NCBI RefSeq assembly: GCF_900116555.1
Contig: NZ_FPAT01000002.1
Location: 310,001 to 374,000 of the forward strand
DNA length: 64,000 bases
DNA from: Actinopolyspora lacussalsi subsp. righensis
GTDB lineage: Bacteria; Actinomycetota; Actinomycetes; Mycobacteriales; Pseudonocardiaceae
Direction of reading: 5' to 3'
A program made the position numbers and the translations under genes. Position 1 is the stretch's first letter, and each line of letters begins with the position of its first letter. Below are positions 9,905 to 48,017 of the stretch, in pieces. The notes below the pieces were generated by a model, which was given only the letters and a program-made list of their open reading frames with translations, was not told where the DNA came from and made no database searches.

Positions 9905-10189
9905 GTAAGGTAGTCTGGGGTTGCTCGTGTCAGTGGGGGTGCGGTGGAGCTGCGGACGAGTCCTTCGAAAGCGGCTCTCGCTGCTTCGGCGGCGGTGCCG
10001 GGACGTCGTCACGGCTCGGTCGGCACCACCGGTCCGTCCTTGGTTCCTCGCGAGGTCGAAATTCCCCCTTCGGGGGATCGACATTCGTTCTCGATATTTT
10101 GTGTTCGTGCGATCGAGTGATCCGAGAAAATGAATTTTATACTGATTCTTTCGAGGGGGCTGTATTTCTCACTCGGCGAGGTGACTTTA

Positions 10190-10218
10190 TTGACTTCGTC
10201 ACGGGTCGTGTCTAATCT
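10190..10218 (+). promoter_or_regulatory. promoter of the lasso-peptide precursor gene
   Basis: TTGACT (10190-10195) and TAATCT (10213-10218) are spaced by 17 bases, a housekeeping-sigma arrangement, 41 bases upstream of the precursor start. The 100 bases before it are markedly AT-rich compared with the surroundings (for example GAAAATGAATTTTATACTGA). The rest of the 355-bp gap from the reductase gene holds no gene I can recognise. Confidence 0.55.
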
Positions 10219-10259
10219 CTGTGTTGTCGGGTTTTTGTTCCGCGACAAGGAGGATGGAA

Positions 10260-10427
10260 ATGATGGAAGAACTCGGCCGTAAGGAAGGAATCGGTGTCGA
10301 GGATCGTTGCTACGAACCGCCCCGAATGGTCGAGGTCGGCTCGTTCAACGAGCTGACCAGAATCAAGACAGCGGGTAACTATGTCGACAGTCCGTACGGT
10401 GTTTGGTGTATCGGTGACTGTGGCTAG
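10260..10427 (+). CDS. lasso peptide precursor (A protein)
   Basis: 55 aa. AAGGAGG at 10247-10253 fixes the start at ATG 10260 (6-base gap); ATG 10263 is the alternative. Residues 18-33 match the actinobacterial lasso leader pattern YxxPxLxxxGxFxxxT exactly (Y18, P21, M23 for L, G27, F29, T33). Thr33 is then the conserved penultimate leader residue, so the predicted core is residues 35-55: ring segment I35 to D43 (IKTAGNYVD), giving a nine-residue macrolactam between the Ile35 amine and the Asp43 side chain, then a 12-residue tail with Cys50 and Cys54. A Cys50-Cys54 disulfide in the tail only would be the class IV arrangement known from LP2006. Cleavage one or two residues later (rings of 8 or 7) cannot be excluded. 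Confidence 0.9.
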   Translation: MMEELGRKEGIGVEDRCYEPPRMVEVGSFNELTRIKTAGNYVDSPYGVWCIGDCG

Positions 10428-10431
10428 AGGT

Positions 10432-10443
10432 GCCCTTTCGGGC
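10432..10443 (+). terminator. short hairpin between precursor and cyclase genes
   Basis: GCCC-TTTC-GGGC directly follows the precursor stop. It has no U tract. In lasso clusters a weak hairpin here often limits read-through so that precursor outnumbers enzymes; that role is inferred. The remaining 190 bases up to the cyclase gene show no gene. Confidence 0.4.
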
Positions 10444-10639
10444 GGCGCGTTCGGTGAGTTCGCTCGGCCCGTTCCGCCCCGCCCCGACACGACGCCGAGC
10501 GGTCGACCGCTCGTACGGTAGTCCGGATCATCCGGCCGAGCCGTTTCGCGAGGATTTGTCAACCGCCGGATTGTAGCCTGGTCGGCCGATTCCCGGGATG
10601 TCGGCCGGCCGGCATTATTTCGGACCGAACAGGAGTGTC

Positions 10640-12457
10640 TTGGAATTTGTGGTTTTTCCGGATCACCCGGATGCTGTGTCACTCGTTTCCGAATTGGACT
10701 GGCAGGACGCGCGAGTGCTGCGACACGTTTCCGGACGTCCCTGGATTGTCGGCCGGTGGAGTGACGAAACGTTTCTTCATGTCTCCGCCGGGGCCGATCA
10801 GGTGATTCTGCTCGGACGTGCCCTTGCCGACGCGGAAACGCTGCGGAAACAGGTGTCCAGGATTCGGGATGTCGAGACTCTGGACGGTGTGCTGCGCGCG
10901 ATCCCTGGGTGCTTCCACGCCGTTTGTTCCCTCGATGGCGTGCTGCGCGTCCAGGGCAACCTGTCCGGAATCCTTCGGGTGTTCCACACGAACGTTTCGG
11001 GTGTGACGGTGGCCGCCGACCGGCCGGAGCGAATCGCCGAACTAGCCGGGGCCGGTATCGACGAACGAGCTCTCGCACTGCGGATGCTCGTCCCGTACGG
11101 ACCCCCGTGGCCGTTGAGCCAGGACTGTCTGTGGCAGGGCGTCCGCGAGATCACCGGCGGCGAGTACCTGCGGGTGGCCCCCGATGGTGCCGGACGAACC
11201 GTGCGGTGGTGGCGACCACCCGAGCCCGAGGTTCCGCTGGAAGAGGGGAGCGAGACGATCCGTGAGGCGCTCTCCGAGGCCGTGCTCTCCTGCGGCGGGC
11301 CGAACGGCTCCGTTCCGCTGAGCTTCGACCTGTCCGGGGGCATGGATTCGACCAGCCTGTGCTTCCTGGCTGACGAGGCCGGTCTCGAGTTCTCGACCGT
11401 CCATTACGAGGCCGCCGATCCGGCCAACGACGACAACGAGTGGGCCAGTCGATGCCGATCCCTGATCGGGGCGTCCGACCACCGCGTGCTTCCGCCGGGG
11501 TCCTGGTCGGGTTTCTACGGCGAAGTGTCCGAGCCCGACCGACACGGTCCCAGCCTGGAAGGTCCCTACAACCAGGTCAGCCGCTGCTTCGCCGAACACC
11601 TGGCCGGAGTGGCCGCGGAAACCGGAGCCATCCGACACGTCGGTGGACACGGTTCGGACGAGCTCTTCCGCACGGAGCTGACGTTCCTCAACGCCTTCCT
11701 CCGGGAACACCCGGTTCGTGCGATCCCGGCGTTGCGTCGAACGCGGGCGAACCGTCGGATGTCCCTCCTGCGAGCGCTGCGCTGTTTCCGAAGAGCTCCC
11801 GGATTCGCCGAATGGCTGCGGCGGGCGGGTGAGAACATCACGGAAGAGGTCGGTGCCCCCGAAGTGGGATGGGACCACGTGGCCAGGATGCCCGCCTGGG
11901 CCACCCGGGACGCCATCTCCCAGACACGCGAACGATTCGCCGCTGCCGCCGCCGAATGTCCCGAACCGTTCGGTGCCACGCCGCTGCGGCACGAGATGCT
12001 GATGCAGGCCCGTTCCAACGGGGAGACGGTTCGACAGTGCTCACGAATAGCCGAACCGTACGGGATCTCCTTCGAGGCCCCTTACATCGACGACCGCGTG
12101 ATCGAGGCGGCGATGTCCATCCGGTTGTCGGACCGCGCCAGCGGCGAGCGCAACAAACCGGTACTGGCCTCGGCGATGAGCGGGGTCGTGCCGCACGAGT
12201 TCCTGCACCGGGACTACAAGGGGGCGGGGAACCAGGACATGTATCGCAGCCTGCGCCGACATCGCGCCGCGATGGGCGATCTCTGCGACGACTCCCGGCT
12301 CGCCCGCCTCGGGCTAGTGGATCCGGAGCGGCTTCGCGACACGGTCTTCGGGCTGCACCCGAACCTGACCTCGGTCATTCCGCTGCAACCGACCCTGGCC
12401 TGCGAGATGTGGTTGCGCTCGCGAGCTGCCGAATCACGCCTGTGTCGGCCGAGCTGA
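10640..12457 (+). CDS. lasso peptide macrolactam synthetase (asparagine-synthetase-like C protein)
   Basis: About 605 aa. An N-terminal glutaminase-like fold lacking the catalytic Cys start is followed by an asparagine-synthetase ATP-pyrophosphatase domain with LSFDLSGGMDSTSLCFLAD (around residues 228-246), which adenylates the ring Asp or Glu so that the peptide N-terminus closes on it. I prefer the TTG at 10640 (protein starts MEFVVFPDHPDA, as in other actinobacterial C proteins; AGGAG lies 4 bases before). ATG 10598 would add 14 residues but has no ribosome site. Next to the precursor, RRE and peptidase genes, this is a lasso cyclase and not a metabolic asparagine synthetase. Confidence 0.9.
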   Translation: MEFVVFPDHPDAVSLVSELDWQDARVLRHVSGRPWIVGRWSDETFLHVSAGADQVILLGRALADAETLRKQVSRIRDVETLDGVLRAIPGCFHAVCSLDGVLRVQGNLSGILRVFHTNVSGVTVAADRPERIAELAGAGIDERALALRMLVPYGPPWPLSQDCLWQGVREITGGEYLRVAPDGAGRTVRWWRPPEPEVPLEEGSETIREALSEAVLSCGGPNGSVPLSFDLSGGMDSTSLCFLADEAGLEFSTVHYEAADPANDDNEWASRCRSLIGASDHRVLPPGSWSGFYGEVSEPDRHGPSLEGPYNQVSRCFAEHLAGVAAETGAIRHVGGHGSDELFRTELTFLNAFLREHPVRAIPALRRTRANRRMSLLRALRCFRRAPGFAEWLRRAGENITEEVGAPEVGWDHVARMPAWATRDAISQTRERFAAAAAECPEPFGATPLRHEMLMQARSNGETVRQCSRIAEPYGISFEAPYIDDRVIEAAMSIRLSDRASGERNKPVLASAMSGVVPHEFLHRDYKGAGNQDMYRSLRRHRAAMGDLCDDSRLARLGLVDPERLRDTVFGLHPNLTSVIPLQPTLACEMWLRSRAAESRLCRPS

Positions 12458-12475
12458 ACGAACGGAGAGGAAACG

Positions 12476-12733
12476 ATGGTCACGTTCGCTGCCCGCGTGA
12501 TCCTCACGGAAACCGAACACGGAACGGTGCTGCTGGACGAGCGCACCGGGCGCTACTGGATCACCAACGATACCGCGACGACCGTACTGCGCTCCTTCGC
12601 CGAGGGAGGGACGGTGCTGGACGCGGCCTCCGCGCTGTGCGAATCGAACCCCGGCCTGGACATGAACGACGCCGAGCGCGACGTGACCGCACTGCTCGAC
12701 CAACTGCGGCACGGTGGGCTGGTGTTGTCATGA
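12476..12733 (+). CDS. PqqD-like RiPP recognition element protein (lasso B1)
   Basis: 85 aa. The sequence VLLDERTGRYWITNDTATTVLRSFAEG, followed by DVTALLDQLRHGGLVL, is the winged-helix RRE (PqqD) pattern. In lasso systems B1 binds the leader through its YxxP segment and delivers the precursor to the peptidase and cyclase. GGAGAGG precedes the ATG. The stop overlaps the peptidase start by 4 bases (ATGA), the usual split B1/B2 arrangement of actinobacteria. Confidence 0.9.
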   Translation: MVTFAARVILTETEHGTVLLDERTGRYWITNDTATTVLRSFAEGGTVLDAASALCESNPGLDMNDAERDVTALLDQLRHGGLVLS

Positions 12734-13170
12734 ACGTCCGGGTGACAGGACTGAACCCCTCGGCCCCGGTGCCCTGGTGGATACGACCGCTCGCCCTGCT
12801 CGCCGTCGGCATCGCCAGGGTGCTGGGACGCGCCAGACCGGCGACGCTGCGCCCCACCTTGGAACTGCTGCGGCATGGTGCCGAACCGGCGACCGAGGAA
12901 CAGGCATCCCGAGCGCTCGACGCGGTGCTCAAGGTCAGCGTCCGCTGCGGTGGGGAGTGGTGTCTGCAACGCGCCATCGCCTGCGCCCTGACCTGCCGTA
13001 TGACCGGCACGTGGCCCGAATGGTGCACCGGCGTCCGGCTCCAGCCGTTCGAGGCCCACGCCTGGGTGGCGGTCGACGGGAAACCGGTGGGCGAGAACCC
13101 GCACACCATGCCGTACTTCCGCACGGTCTGGTCCGTTCCGCCGATCACCGCGTCCCGGGAGCGCCACTGA
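12730..13170 (+). CDS. lasso leader peptidase (transglutaminase-like B2 protein)
   Basis: 146 aa. The segment RCGGEWCLQRAIACAL places catalytic Cys78, and FEAHAWVAVDGKPV supplies His110 and the nearby Asp116, the Cys-His-Asp triad of the bacterial transglutaminase-like fold used by lasso B2 proteins. It cleaves the leader after the residue following Thr33, exposing the core amine for cyclisation. It overlaps B1 by 4 bases and its stop shares one base with the ATPase start (TGATG), so all these genes are coupled. Confidence 0.9.
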   Translation: MNVRVTGLNPSAPVPWWIRPLALLAVGIARVLGRARPATLRPTLELLRHGAEPATEEQASRALDAVLKVSVRCGGEWCLQRAIACALTCRMTGTWPEWCTGVRLQPFEAHAWVAVDGKPVGENPHTMPYFRTVWSVPPITASRERH

Positions 13171-14087
13171 TGACGGCGGTGGTCTGCGAGAACCTTCGCA
13201 AGCGATTCGGTGACTCCGACGCCGTCGCGGGGATCGACTTCAAGGTCGAGGAAGGCGACAAGTTCGCCTTCCTCGGTCCGAACGGTGCCGGCAAGACCAC
13301 GACCGTGGGTATCCTGTCCACGTTGCTACGCCCGACCGAGGGACGCGCCACCGTCGCCGGTTTCGACGTCGTCCGCAACCCCGACCGGGTGCGTGACCGG
13401 ATCGGCCTCGTGTTCCAGGAGCAGGTCAGCGACGGCGATCTGACAGCGGAGGAGAACCTCATGCTGCACTCCGTGCTCTACGGGGTGCCCCGAGCCGAAG
13501 CACGTAAGCGGATGGTTTCGTTGCTCGAACTGATGGGGCTCGCCGACCGACGTCATCACAGGGTGACGACCCTGTCCGGTGGCATGCGGCGTCGTCTGGA
13601 GATCGCGCGGTGCCTGATGCACGATCCGCGACTGCTGTTTCTGGACGAACCCACGGCCGGACTGGATCCGCACGCGCGGGTAATGGTGTGGGAGTTGCTG
13701 GACAGGCTCCGCGAGGAGCGGGGCATCACACTGTTCCTGACCACGCATTACCTGGCCGAGGCCGAACGGTGCGACCGGGTGGCCATCCTGGACCGGGGAA
13801 CGCTGGTCGCCGACGGGACGCCGCAAGGACTGGAAGCCACCGTCGGCGCCGATTCGATCCAGCTGCGCACCAGCGACGACGCGCTGGCCGCGAGGAATGC
13901 CCGAAGCGCTCTCGGGTTGGAAGTCTCCGATCACCCCGAGGGAATACGGATACACGCGGCGAACGGGCCGGAACTGGTACCCAGACTCTGCTCCGAGCTG
14001 GGGGTCACAGTGGACTCGGTATCGGTGTCCCGCCCGAGCCTCGAGGACGTTTTCATGCACTACACCGGCCACGCTTTCCAGGAATAG
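13170..14087 (+). CDS. ABC transporter ATPase (DrrA type), probable lasso peptide exporter
   Basis: 305 aa. Walker A GPNGAGKTTTVGIL, signature TLSGGMRRRLEIARCL, Walker B LLFLDEPTAGLDPHAR and the H-loop in LTTHYLAEAERCD are all intact. The C-terminal extension ending VDSVSVSRPSLEDVFMHYTG is typical of daunorubicin-type (DrrA) ATPases. Located in the lasso operon with its permease 9 bases downstream, it most likely powers export of, and self-immunity to, the mature peptide. Confidence 0.88.
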   Translation: MTAVVCENLRKRFGDSDAVAGIDFKVEEGDKFAFLGPNGAGKTTTVGILSTLLRPTEGRATVAGFDVVRNPDRVRDRIGLVFQEQVSDGDLTAEENLMLHSVLYGVPRAEARKRMVSLLELMGLADRRHHRVTTLSGGMRRRLEIARCLMHDPRLLFLDEPTAGLDPHARVMVWELLDRLREERGITLFLTTHYLAEAERCDRVAILDRGTLVADGTPQGLEATVGADSIQLRTSDDALAARNARSALGLEVSDHPEGIRIHAANGPELVPRLCSELGVTVDSVSVSRPSLEDVFMHYTGHAFQE

Positions 14088-14096
14088 GGACGGGCG

Positions 14097-14957
14097 ATGC
14101 AGCACGCGCACCTCGATGTGGAACGGATTTACAGCCGGAGCGGAATCCGTCGAGGGGCCCGCCACGAGCTGCGCAGCGTACTCGCGCTTTGGCAGCGTGA
14201 GCTGGTCCGCATGCTGCGCAACCGCGCACAGTTGATCTTTACGCTGATAAGTCCCCTGCTGTTTCTCGTGGTGATCGGCACCGGAGTGGACACGATCGCA
14301 GGCCGGACGGGTGGCACCGACATGTACCTGACCTTCCTGTTCCCGGGGATACTCGTGTTCGCCGTACAAGCCACGTCCATCTCCGCCGGTCTCTCGCTGG
14401 TGCGCGACCGCGAGTCCGGACTGCTGCGGGGAATGCTGGTAGCCCCGGTACACCGGGCCACCCTGGTGGCGGGGAAGTGCCTCGGCGGCGCCACGGCGGC
14501 GGCCGTGCAGGGGGCGCTGCTGCTGGCCCTGGCCGGTTTCGTCGGACTGTCCTACGACCCACGCGTTCTGATCCTGCTGTTCCTGGTGCTCACACTGATC
14601 TCCGTGTCCATTACCGCTGTGGGTGCTCTCGGGGCCGTTACCGTCAAACGGGCGGAAGCCTTCCAATCCATGGTCGCCGTCATGCTGATGCCGATGTACC
14701 TGCTGTCCGGCGCCATGTTCTCCGTCCGGATGCTGCCCGACTGGCTGGCCCCGCTGGTGCTGCTGAACCCGCTGACCTACGCGGTGGACGCACTGCGCCG
14801 GACCGCCATGTTGGGAGTGGATGCCGGGCGGTCGGAGACCACTTTCGTGAACTGGGGCGGTTGGGTTCCGCCCGTCGGGCTGGAGATAGTCGCCATGTGT
14901 TTGCTGAGCCTGTCGGCACTGGCACTGGCCACCCGCAGGTTCGCGCGCGTCGAATGA
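14097..14957 (+). CDS. ABC-2 type permease (DrrB type), probable lasso peptide exporter
   Basis: 286 aa with about six membrane helices (AQLIFTLISPLLFLVVIGTG to LEIVAMCLLSLSALALA) and the ABC-2 signature region FLFPGILVFAVQATSISAGLSLVRDRESGLLRGMLVAPV. LPDWLAPLVLLNPLTYAVDALR is the conserved C-terminal loop. It is the last gene of the lasso operon, 14 bases from the convergent MOSC gene; I see no clear terminator between them. Confidence 0.87.
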   Translation: MQHAHLDVERIYSRSGIRRGARHELRSVLALWQRELVRMLRNRAQLIFTLISPLLFLVVIGTGVDTIAGRTGGTDMYLTFLFPGILVFAVQATSISAGLSLVRDRESGLLRGMLVAPVHRATLVAGKCLGGATAAAVQGALLLALAGFVGLSYDPRVLILLFLVLTLISVSITAVGALGAVTVKRAEAFQSMVAVMLMPMYLLSGAMFSVRMLPDWLAPLVLLNPLTYAVDALRRTAMLGVDAGRSETTFVNWGGWVPPVGLEIVAMCLLSLSALALATRRFARVE

Positions 14958-14971
14958 TCTCCGCGGGGAGG

Positions 14972-36607: not shown

Positions 36608-37555
36608 ATGGCAAGACCGCCCATCGAGGTCGAAAACGTAACCAAGGACTTCGGAAAGTTCAAGGCTCTCGACGACGTGAGCCTGCGAGTTCCCCAGGGC
36701 AACGTCCTGGGGCTGCTGGGGCACAACGGCGCGGGCAAGACCACGCTGGTCAACATCCTCAGCACCCTGTTACCACCGACCACCGGAACGGCACGCGTCG
36801 CGGGCTACGACGTCGTGCGGCAGAGCAGGCAGGTCTGCGCCCGCATCGGGTTGACCGGCCAGTTCGCCGCCGTCGACGAGCAGTTGTCCGGACTGGACAA
36901 TCTGGTGCTGATCGCCAGGCTCCTGGGAGCGACCAAACGCGCCGCCAAGCAGCGGGCGGAGGAGCTGCTGACCCTGTTCGAGCTGACCGAGGCGGCCAAG
37001 CGGCCCGCCCGGACGTACTCCGGCGGTATGCGGCGCAGGTTGGACCTGGCGGCCAGCCTCGTCGGTCATCCGGACGTGATCTTCCTCGACGAGCCGACCA
37101 CCGGGCTGGACCCGACCAGCCGGATGGGGCTGTGGCAGATCGTGGAGAACCTGGTCGACGACGGCACCACGGTGCTGCTGACCACGCAGTACCTCGACGA
37201 GGCCGACCGGCTCGCCGACTCCATCACCGTGCTCTCCAGCGGCAAGGTCGTCGCTTCCGGAACAGCCGAGGAGCTGAAGGCCGAGGTGGGGCAGCGGACC
37301 GCCACCGCCACGCTCGCCGACGCCGCCGATTCCGCTCGTGCCCTCGAAGCGCTCGGCCGTGCCGGGCTCAGCCCGGTGCACGACGAACAGCGCAACGCCA
37401 TCACCGCCCCGGTCAACGCCTCGCACGAACTCGCGGTCGTGGTCCGCGCGTTGGACGAGGCCGGAATCGAGGTCAGCGGACTCGGCCTCGGCGAGCCCAC
37501 GCTGGACGACGTCTACCTGAACCTTGCCCACCACTCCGCCGAACCGGCCGCCTGA
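36608..37555 (+). CDS. daunorubicin-resistance-type ABC ATPase (DrrA family)
   Basis: 315 aa. Walker A GHNGAGKTTLVNIL, signature TYSGGMRRRLDLAASL, Walker B VIFLDEPTTGLDPTSR, H-loop TTQYLDEADRLAD (Gln replaces the more common His) and the DrrA-type C-terminal end LGEPTLDDVYLNLAHH. GAGAGGGAAACA precedes the ATG. With the next gene it forms an exporter for a hydrophobic drug or metabolite; the substrate is unknown. Confidence 0.88.
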   Translation: MARPPIEVENVTKDFGKFKALDDVSLRVPQGNVLGLLGHNGAGKTTLVNILSTLLPPTTGTARVAGYDVVRQSRQVCARIGLTGQFAAVDEQLSGLDNLVLIARLLGATKRAAKQRAEELLTLFELTEAAKRPARTYSGGMRRRLDLAASLVGHPDVIFLDEPTTGLDPTSRMGLWQIVENLVDDGTTVLLTTQYLDEADRLADSITVLSSGKVVASGTAEELKAEVGQRTATATLADAADSARALEALGRAGLSPVHDEQRNAITAPVNASHELAVVVRALDEAGIEVSGLGLGEPTLDDVYLNLAHHSAEPAA

Positions 37556-37571
37556 GCGACGGGAAGTCCAG

Positions 37572-38408
37572 ATGACCAGTACACTCACCGCTCCGCGAAC
37601 CGGAGCGCAACAGTCCGCGCCGGACCGCACCAACTGGCACGGCGCCGGGGTGTGGACCCAGATCGTGGTTCTGACCGGCAGATCCTTACGCGCGGTTCTG
37701 AAAGATCCCCGAATAGTCGTCTTCAGCCTGCTGCAGCCGCTGATCATGCTGACACTGTTCAGCCAGGTCTTCGGCAAGGCGTTGATGTCGAGCATCCAGA
37801 CCGGTAGCTACATCAACTACCTGATGCCCGCCATCCTGGTCACCACCGGTATCGGTGCCTCGCTGCAGTCCGGGGTGGGGCTGATCACCGACATGAAGAA
37901 CGGTGTGCTCGGCAGATTCCGTTCACTGCCCATCCGGATGGGCTCGGTGCTGCTGGCACGCAGCCTCGCCGACCTGTTCCGGACGGCGGTGCAACTGGTG
38001 ATCCTGCTGGGGGCCGCCGCCGTGCTGTTCGGTTTCTCCCCGAAGGGCGGATTTCTCGGCACCTTCAGCGCGTGGTTGCTCGCGCTGCTGGTGAGCTGGT
38101 CGTTGACCTGGGTCTTCCTCGCGATCGCCTCGTGGGTCCGCAAGGAGGAGGTCATGCAGAGCGTCGGCTTCCTGGCCATGTTCCCGCTGATGTTCGCGTC
38201 CAGCGCGTTCGTCCCGCTGGACGCGCTGCCCGACTGGTTGAGCATCGTCGCGCGCATCAACCCGCTGACCTACGCGGTCGACGCTTCCCGGGACCTGTCG
38301 CTGGCGATGCCGGTGGGAACCGGTGTGCTGTCCGCAGTGGGTACCAGCGCGGTGCTGCTGGTGGTCGGTGCCTTCTTCGCGGTGAAGGGGTTCCGCCGCC
38401 CGCTGTGA
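37572..38408 (+). CDS. ABC-2 type permease (DrrB family)
   Basis: 278 aa with six helices; INYLMPAILVTTGIGASLQSGVGLITDMKNGVLGRFRSLPI is the ABC-2 signature. DWLSIVARINPLTYAVDASRDL matches the conserved C-terminal loop. It starts 16 bases after the ATPase stop, and its own stop overlaps the glycosyltransferase start (GTGA), so export and glycosylation are translated together. Confidence 0.87.
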   Translation: MTSTLTAPRTGAQQSAPDRTNWHGAGVWTQIVVLTGRSLRAVLKDPRIVVFSLLQPLIMLTLFSQVFGKALMSSIQTGSYINYLMPAILVTTGIGASLQSGVGLITDMKNGVLGRFRSLPIRMGSVLLARSLADLFRTAVQLVILLGAAAVLFGFSPKGGFLGTFSAWLLALLVSWSLTWVFLAIASWVRKEEVMQSVGFLAMFPLMFASSAFVPLDALPDWLSIVARINPLTYAVDASRDLSLAMPVGTGVLSAVGTSAVLLVVGAFFAVKGFRRPL

Positions 38409-47960: not shown

Positions 47961-48017
47961 TGTGCGCTGGGCTGATGCGCCCTCGGCAGGATTCGAACCT
48001 GCGACACCCGCTTTAGG
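47961..48017 (-). other. right boundary repeat of the island (3' end of tRNA-Arg plus flank)
   Basis: Direct-repeat partner of 44880-44936, 3,081 bp apart. It includes the 3' 40 bases of the intact tRNA-Arg gene and 17 bases beyond its 3' end. Bases 47666-47960, between the IS element and this repeat, show no gene. Confidence 0.6.

Follow-up and report, generated by a model that had tools for sequence, protein, structure and literature searches.

A predicted class IV-type lasso peptide with a nine-residue ring, encoded by an accessory operon of Actinopolyspora lacussalsi

What kind of product should be expected from a lasso-peptide operon whose core peptide carries both of its cysteines in the tail and none in the ring? 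The question is raised by an intact six-gene operon (10190-14957, plus strand) in a 64,000-nucleotide stretch of Actinopolyspora lacussalsi subsp. righensis (contig NZ_FPAT01000002.1, positions 310,001 to 374,000), referred to here as the window. Class IV lasso peptides possess one disulfide that lies wholly in the tail (PMC9266682), where it acts as a plug (PMC7549694). On the evidence of the core, its conservation and the accompanying genes, the operon product is likely to be a class IV-type lasso peptide with a tail disulfide predicted between Cys16 and Cys20. An earlier note on this DNA had reached a similar view with LP2006 as its reference case; a class IV-like product, with a nine-residue ring and a tail pair kept in orthologs, remains the likeliest outcome, but the peptide is no close relative of LP2006: cyclase and core both group with cysteine-free peptides.

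The precursor (gene A, 10260-10427, plus strand, 55 residues) matched the lasso leader family NF033521 with 33.7 bits (cut-off 19), and its start codon aligns with the ATG of the orthologs, other in-frame ATGs being present at 10254 and 10263. The leader agrees in general with the pattern YxxPxLxxxGxFxxxT given in the earlier note, except that Met occupies the place of Leu in YEPPRMVEVGSFNELT. Thr33, invariant in seven aligned precursor rows, sits two residues before the core, and because of this Thr(-2) placement a 21-residue core, IKTAGNYVDSPYGVWCIGDCG (10362-10424), with a nine-residue ring is predicted. The core begins with Ile1, Asp9 (10386-10388) is the sole Asp or Glu at positions 7-9, and cysteines occur only at positions 16 (10407-10409) and 20 (10419-10421). 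Core length, Asp9 and both cysteines agree with the earlier note, as does the i to i+4 (C-x3-C) spacing, which LP2006 and the felipeptins share. A further cysteine, at residue 17 of the leader, is absent from the orthologs. A search of solved structures with the precursor gave a single match, the tricyclic peptide MS-271 (8itg, E 0.0016).

A precursor search located the operon in three of ten genomes of the genus: that of the window, G208 and G104. The ortholog cores, RIKTAGNYIDSPYGVWCVGNCG and RVKTSGNYIDSPYGVWCVGNCG, both keep Asp9, Cys16 and Cys20, and two cysteines C-terminal of the ring with none inside it, the sequence pattern of class IV, were found in the window and in both orthologs. 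A chance pattern of a single genome was ruled out as the source of the tail pair by this recurrence. Comparison of the window with G208 showed that, among the 21 core codons, nine are identical, nine differ silently and three carry replacements (V-I, I-V, D-N), all conservative, while the 34 leader codons comprise 18 identical, four silent and 12 replaced. The mostly silent nature of the core changes, the six intact reading frames and the retention of a promoter-like region and ribosome site speak against a decaying or silent cluster that yields no product; such decay, to which the presence of the operon in just three of the ten congeneric genomes lends some weight, seems very improbable. In a phylum-wide search of 396 genomes with the precursor profile, the genome of the window was the sole match.

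Judged by the NCBIfam and Pfam families of its proteins, the operon is a complete lasso-peptide cluster of actinobacterial type with split B1 and B2, its uninterrupted reading frames following the order A-C-B1-B2-D1-D2 that the earlier note had given. The asparagine-synthetase-like cyclase C (10598-12457, plus strand, 619 residues) scored 216.5 bits against NF033561, below the cut-off of 300, and exceeded the Pfam cut-off of Asn_synthase (PF00733). In its SGGMDS motif, G247, G248 and S251 are kept in 42 of 42 aligned cyclases and D250 in 40; a search of solved structures with the cyclase gave no match at E 0.001. B1 (12476-12733, plus strand), a PqqD-like leader-binding protein (RRE), scored 90 bits against NF033530 (cut-off 70) and matches the solved leader-binding protein TfuB1 (6jx3_B, E 1.3e-12). 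The transglutaminase-like leader peptidase B2 (12730-13170, plus strand; NF033537, 104 bits, cut-off 33) retains Cys78 (42 of 44 aligned B2 sequences), His110 and Glu122 (both 44 of 44), residues that we take to be the catalytic triad. The motif, the RRE and the Cys-His peptidase of the earlier note were thereby borne out. D1 (13170-14087, plus strand) is an ABC transporter ATPase of DrrA type (TIGR01188, 330 bits, cut-off 312), and the ABC-2 permease D2 (14097-14957, plus strand) is DrrB-like, its 163 bits falling below the TIGR01247 cut-off of 223 and its match to ABC2_membrane (PF01061) lying above the Pfam cut-off. A single B2 match with PF13471 points, by that test, to one such cluster in the genome.

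Because of these protein families, we propose that B1 would bind the leader and guide B2 to cut after Thr33-Arg34, and that C would close the lactam, linking the Asp9 side chain with the Ile1 amino group so that the ring encircles the threaded tail. Export may be the task of D1 and D2. From their conservation and spacing, Cys16 and Cys20 would oxidise to a disulfide wholly within the tail. This disulfide would probably act as a lower plug against slipping of the tail, at the place taken by Trp16 in three cysteine-free cousins, and the oxidation would probably need no catalysis by any gene of the cluster. By analogy with LP2006, the peptide probably serves to antagonise other Gram-positive bacteria.

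The lasso might also form with tail cysteines that stay reduced or bond between molecules, giving a peptide that is functionally class II. This would be in keeping with the lack of a Pfam thiol oxidoreductase match in the ten neighbouring open reading frames, to which the scan of window and genome was confined, but both cysteines persist in the three orthologs although other positions of the core differ, and all 12 tail-pair cores collected here are spaced C-x3-C, as are LP2006 and the felipeptins, for which the disulfide is listed (PMC12427821). Moreover, the LP2006, pandonodin and felipeptin clusters share no additional gene, so that the disulfide of known class IV peptides is probably formed non-enzymatically (PMC9266682). 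We therefore regard reduced or intermolecular cysteines as unlikely. A disulfide spanning the plane of the ring, with Cys16 above it in the loop and Cys20 below, would not be class IV; in its favour, Asp9 and Cys16 lie farther apart than the matching residues of LP2006 and the felipeptins, but the aligned positions 15-16 of the cousins are aromatic, as fits plugs at the ring, and on general reasoning a five-residue disulfide loop is probably too tight for a ring strand, leaving this arrangement with very little probability. Two observations do weigh against a class IV-type product: the distance from the ring to the first cysteine is seven residues in the window as against five in LP2006 and the felipeptins, and just three orthologs are known, all within one genus.

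The operon is accessory. In eight of eight congeners compared at the window site (G192, the tenth genome, was left out), the two genes that flank the operon, for an aldo/keto reductase and a MOSC protein, adjoin without the cluster. The gap between them measures about 60-280 bp in four congeners, and in the other four (G369, G204, G196, G062) it holds a gene for a type I methionine aminopeptidase (256 bits against TIGR00500 for the G369 gene, the one tested) and a small open reading frame with, by eye, the look of a helix-turn-helix regulator and no NCBIfam match. G369 is labelled as the same species as the window, and its flanks are 95-98% identical. The aminopeptidase gene survives in the window as 36 bp from its 3' end (10009-10044, minus strand, 92% identical to G369), a remnant that delimits the acquired segment on its left, and the 62 bp at 9983-10044 match G062 at 87%; from this remnant we conclude that the operon, on a segment of about 4.9 kb (10045 to 14969), replaced the aminopeptidase and regulator-like pair. 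G208 and G104 have the operon at a second site, common to both; in G397 the flanks of that site are separated by 133-255 bp. The window and G208 show 76-81% identity over the operon DNA, within the range of their native flanks (69-87%), and a recent transfer between the two is therefore not indicated. The searches made at the operon edges found no tRNA or repeat; a tRNA lies at 47977. Plasmid carriage was also considered and set aside, as the 19 plasmid records with a B2 relative were all below 60% identity.

The earlier note had the locus extend from 10190 to 14957, and the operon does lie within these limits; position 10190 is the first base of a -35-like box, and the precursor begins at 10260. 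The putative promoter, recognized by eye, consists of TTGACT (10190-10195), a 17-nt spacer and TAATCT (10213-10218) on the plus strand, and the alignment shows a pattern TTGAC-17 nt-TA.T.T common to the window and both orthologs. A consensus scan of the plus strand for promoters and terminators found nothing and did not list this putative promoter either. A putative ribosome binding site, aaggagg (10247-10253, plus strand), precedes the precursor, and its AAGGAG is kept in all three orthologs. The overlapping starts attributed to the genes apply to B1/B2 (4 nt) and B2/D1 (1 nt), but the other three of the five junctions are gaps, of 170 nt (A-C), 18 nt (C-B1) and 9 nt (D1-D2). The A-C gap varies in length between the window and the orthologs; a hairpin attenuator 3' of the precursor was rejected, the 46-nt fold being no better than shuffled sequences (z 0.19). 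Elsewhere in the window, at 36608-38408, lies a second DrrA/DrrB-like ABC transporter pair (drrA TIGR01188, 347 bits), whose DNA weakly resembles that of the lasso genes D1 and D2.

How common is a tail pair among related clusters? Across 397 genomes of the order, B2 was matched at 47 places in 40 genomes; 46 of these places lie outside the genome of the window, and longer stretches were taken for 40 of them. Across 390 genomes of the family, the precursor profile matched at 51 places in 42 genomes, with 30 loci among the matches listed, and a scan of genome contigs added three loci. A motif script run over all collected loci returned 58 distinct strings, of which that from L044, with no acceptor, was spurious, leaving 57 cores; it recognized no precursor in L056, L058, L066, L068, L074 and L117. 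Cysteine is lacking in 40 of these cores, while one has a single cysteine, two a ring and tail pair, two four cysteines in the manner of class I, and 12 a tail-tail pair. The rarity claimed for the pattern thus found no support within this order, with 12 of 57 distinct cores showing tail C-x3-C in a sample that was picked by similarity to the window cluster, is biased towards relatives and gives no frequency estimate. Nine of the 12 have Cys13/Cys17 after an acceptor at position 8, and the three from the genus of the window have Cys16/Cys20 after Asp9. Another class IV-like candidate is the L059 core GNGGGGVDTFWECWFWCDRP, with Asp8 and Cys13/Cys17 in a sequence unlike LP2006 and the felipeptins. 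The predicted cores of L121 (C3, C18) and L052 (C2, C16) have a cysteine in the ring and another in the tail, as in class III, of which very few examples are described (PMC9266682). Tandem precursors of the cysteine-free cousin type, ITDKGGYVDLLGGWFDF and DSDKGNYVDGLFYWFGF, are found at L105 (G551).

A tree was built from 42 cyclases: that of the window and 41 from the 43 loci examined in relatives, L068 and L074 lacking a usable one. The window trio falls in one clade (100/99) with the cyclases of L003 and of the cysteine-free L037, L038, L041 and L002; a second clade (99/96) unites LP2006-like (L040, L051), felipeptin and L059 cyclases with the cysteine-free L048. A single clade of the seven tail-pair cyclase rows was rejected (p-AU 1.5e-8), as was a group of the window trio with the LP2006/felipeptin-type clade, L048 included (p-AU 0.0002). 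Both the cyclase tree and the core alignment disagree with a reading of the window peptide as an LP2006 homolog, which was dropped. The cousins' precursors align in register with the window core, with Gly5, Asp9 and Gly13 invariant in seven rows. Their cores are ITNRGGYIDSPWGGWWL (L037), LTNRGYWLDGPWGAWWF (L041), LTSTGYWADGIWGYFWF (L038) and ITDKGGYVDLFGGWWLD (L002, Thermomonospora echinospora), and in L037, L038 and L041 Trp16 occupies the place of Cys16; L037 and the window core have the same frame, with a window tail four residues longer.

Was the tail pair gained separately in this lineage, or once, early, with later losses? The ring size differs, the cysteine positions differ and the cysteine-free cousins match in register, and for these reasons a separate origin is favoured. 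Branch order is unsupported both for the cousins as sister to the window trio (67/30) and for the nine-row clade of trio and cousins as sister to the LP2006/felipeptin-type clade (49/41) in the careful tree; placing L002 and L037 with the window trio is equally good (p-AU 0.503). Each history takes three changes: two gains plus the loss of the pair in L048, or a single gain followed by two losses. With branch order unsupported and change counts equal, the tree was dropped as proof of independent gain. It is conceivable, though we would say so tentatively, that class IV arose more than once: a cysteine-free lineage with a nine-residue ring may, within one genus, have acquired a tail extension with C-x3-C, its disulfide replacing the Trp16 plug, to give the first class IV-type peptide with a nine-residue ring and a residue 1 other than glycine.

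The characterised class IV peptides that we located in reviews number four, so LP2006 is not alone: felipeptins A1 and A2 and pandonodin belong to the class as well (PMC9266682, PMC12427821), and the table of known lasso peptides gives each of the four with Gly1 and Glu8 (PMC12427821). The window core, which the earlier note did not recognize, was not seen by eye in that table. It was also absent from a literature text search, a weak negative, as the same search missed felipeptin A1, which is printed with bond marks; the string used for the window core stops short of Cys16, and bond marks of this sort would not break it. The peptide of Nocardiopsis alba, LP2006, resembles that of the window in its single tail pair, C-x3-C, and the lack of a ring cysteine (PMC12427821), but has Gly1, an eight-residue ring closed at Glu8 and Cys13-Cys17, and the cyclases of LP2006-like clusters lie in another clade. 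The felipeptins, also actinobacterial and with a tail C-x3-C pair (PMC12427821), likewise differ by Gly1, Glu8 and Cys13-Cys17, and have two precursors per cluster, for which a review also describes a flavin-dependent oxidoreductase gene (PMC9266682); L043 encodes the exact A1 and A2 cores tabulated in PMC12427821. Ile1, Asp9 and Cys16/Cys20 thus set the window peptide apart from the LP2006/felipeptin lineage, with its eight-residue ring, Gly1, Glu8 or Asp8, and Cys13/Cys17. Pandonodin (Pandoraea) agrees in having its first tail cysteine at position 16, but it is proteobacterial, has 33 residues with Gly1 and Glu8, and places its second cysteine at 21 (C-x4-C) (PMC12427821). The locus adds an incremental point on lasso-peptide evolution and no new kind of system. 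The cousins with nine-residue rings share its register and cyclase clade and differ in lacking cysteine and in a tail about four residues shorter, which makes the two a natural pair for probing the role of a tail disulfide, and for asking by comparison whether a disulfide can stand in place of a bulky plug residue and whether one cyclase type accepts both.

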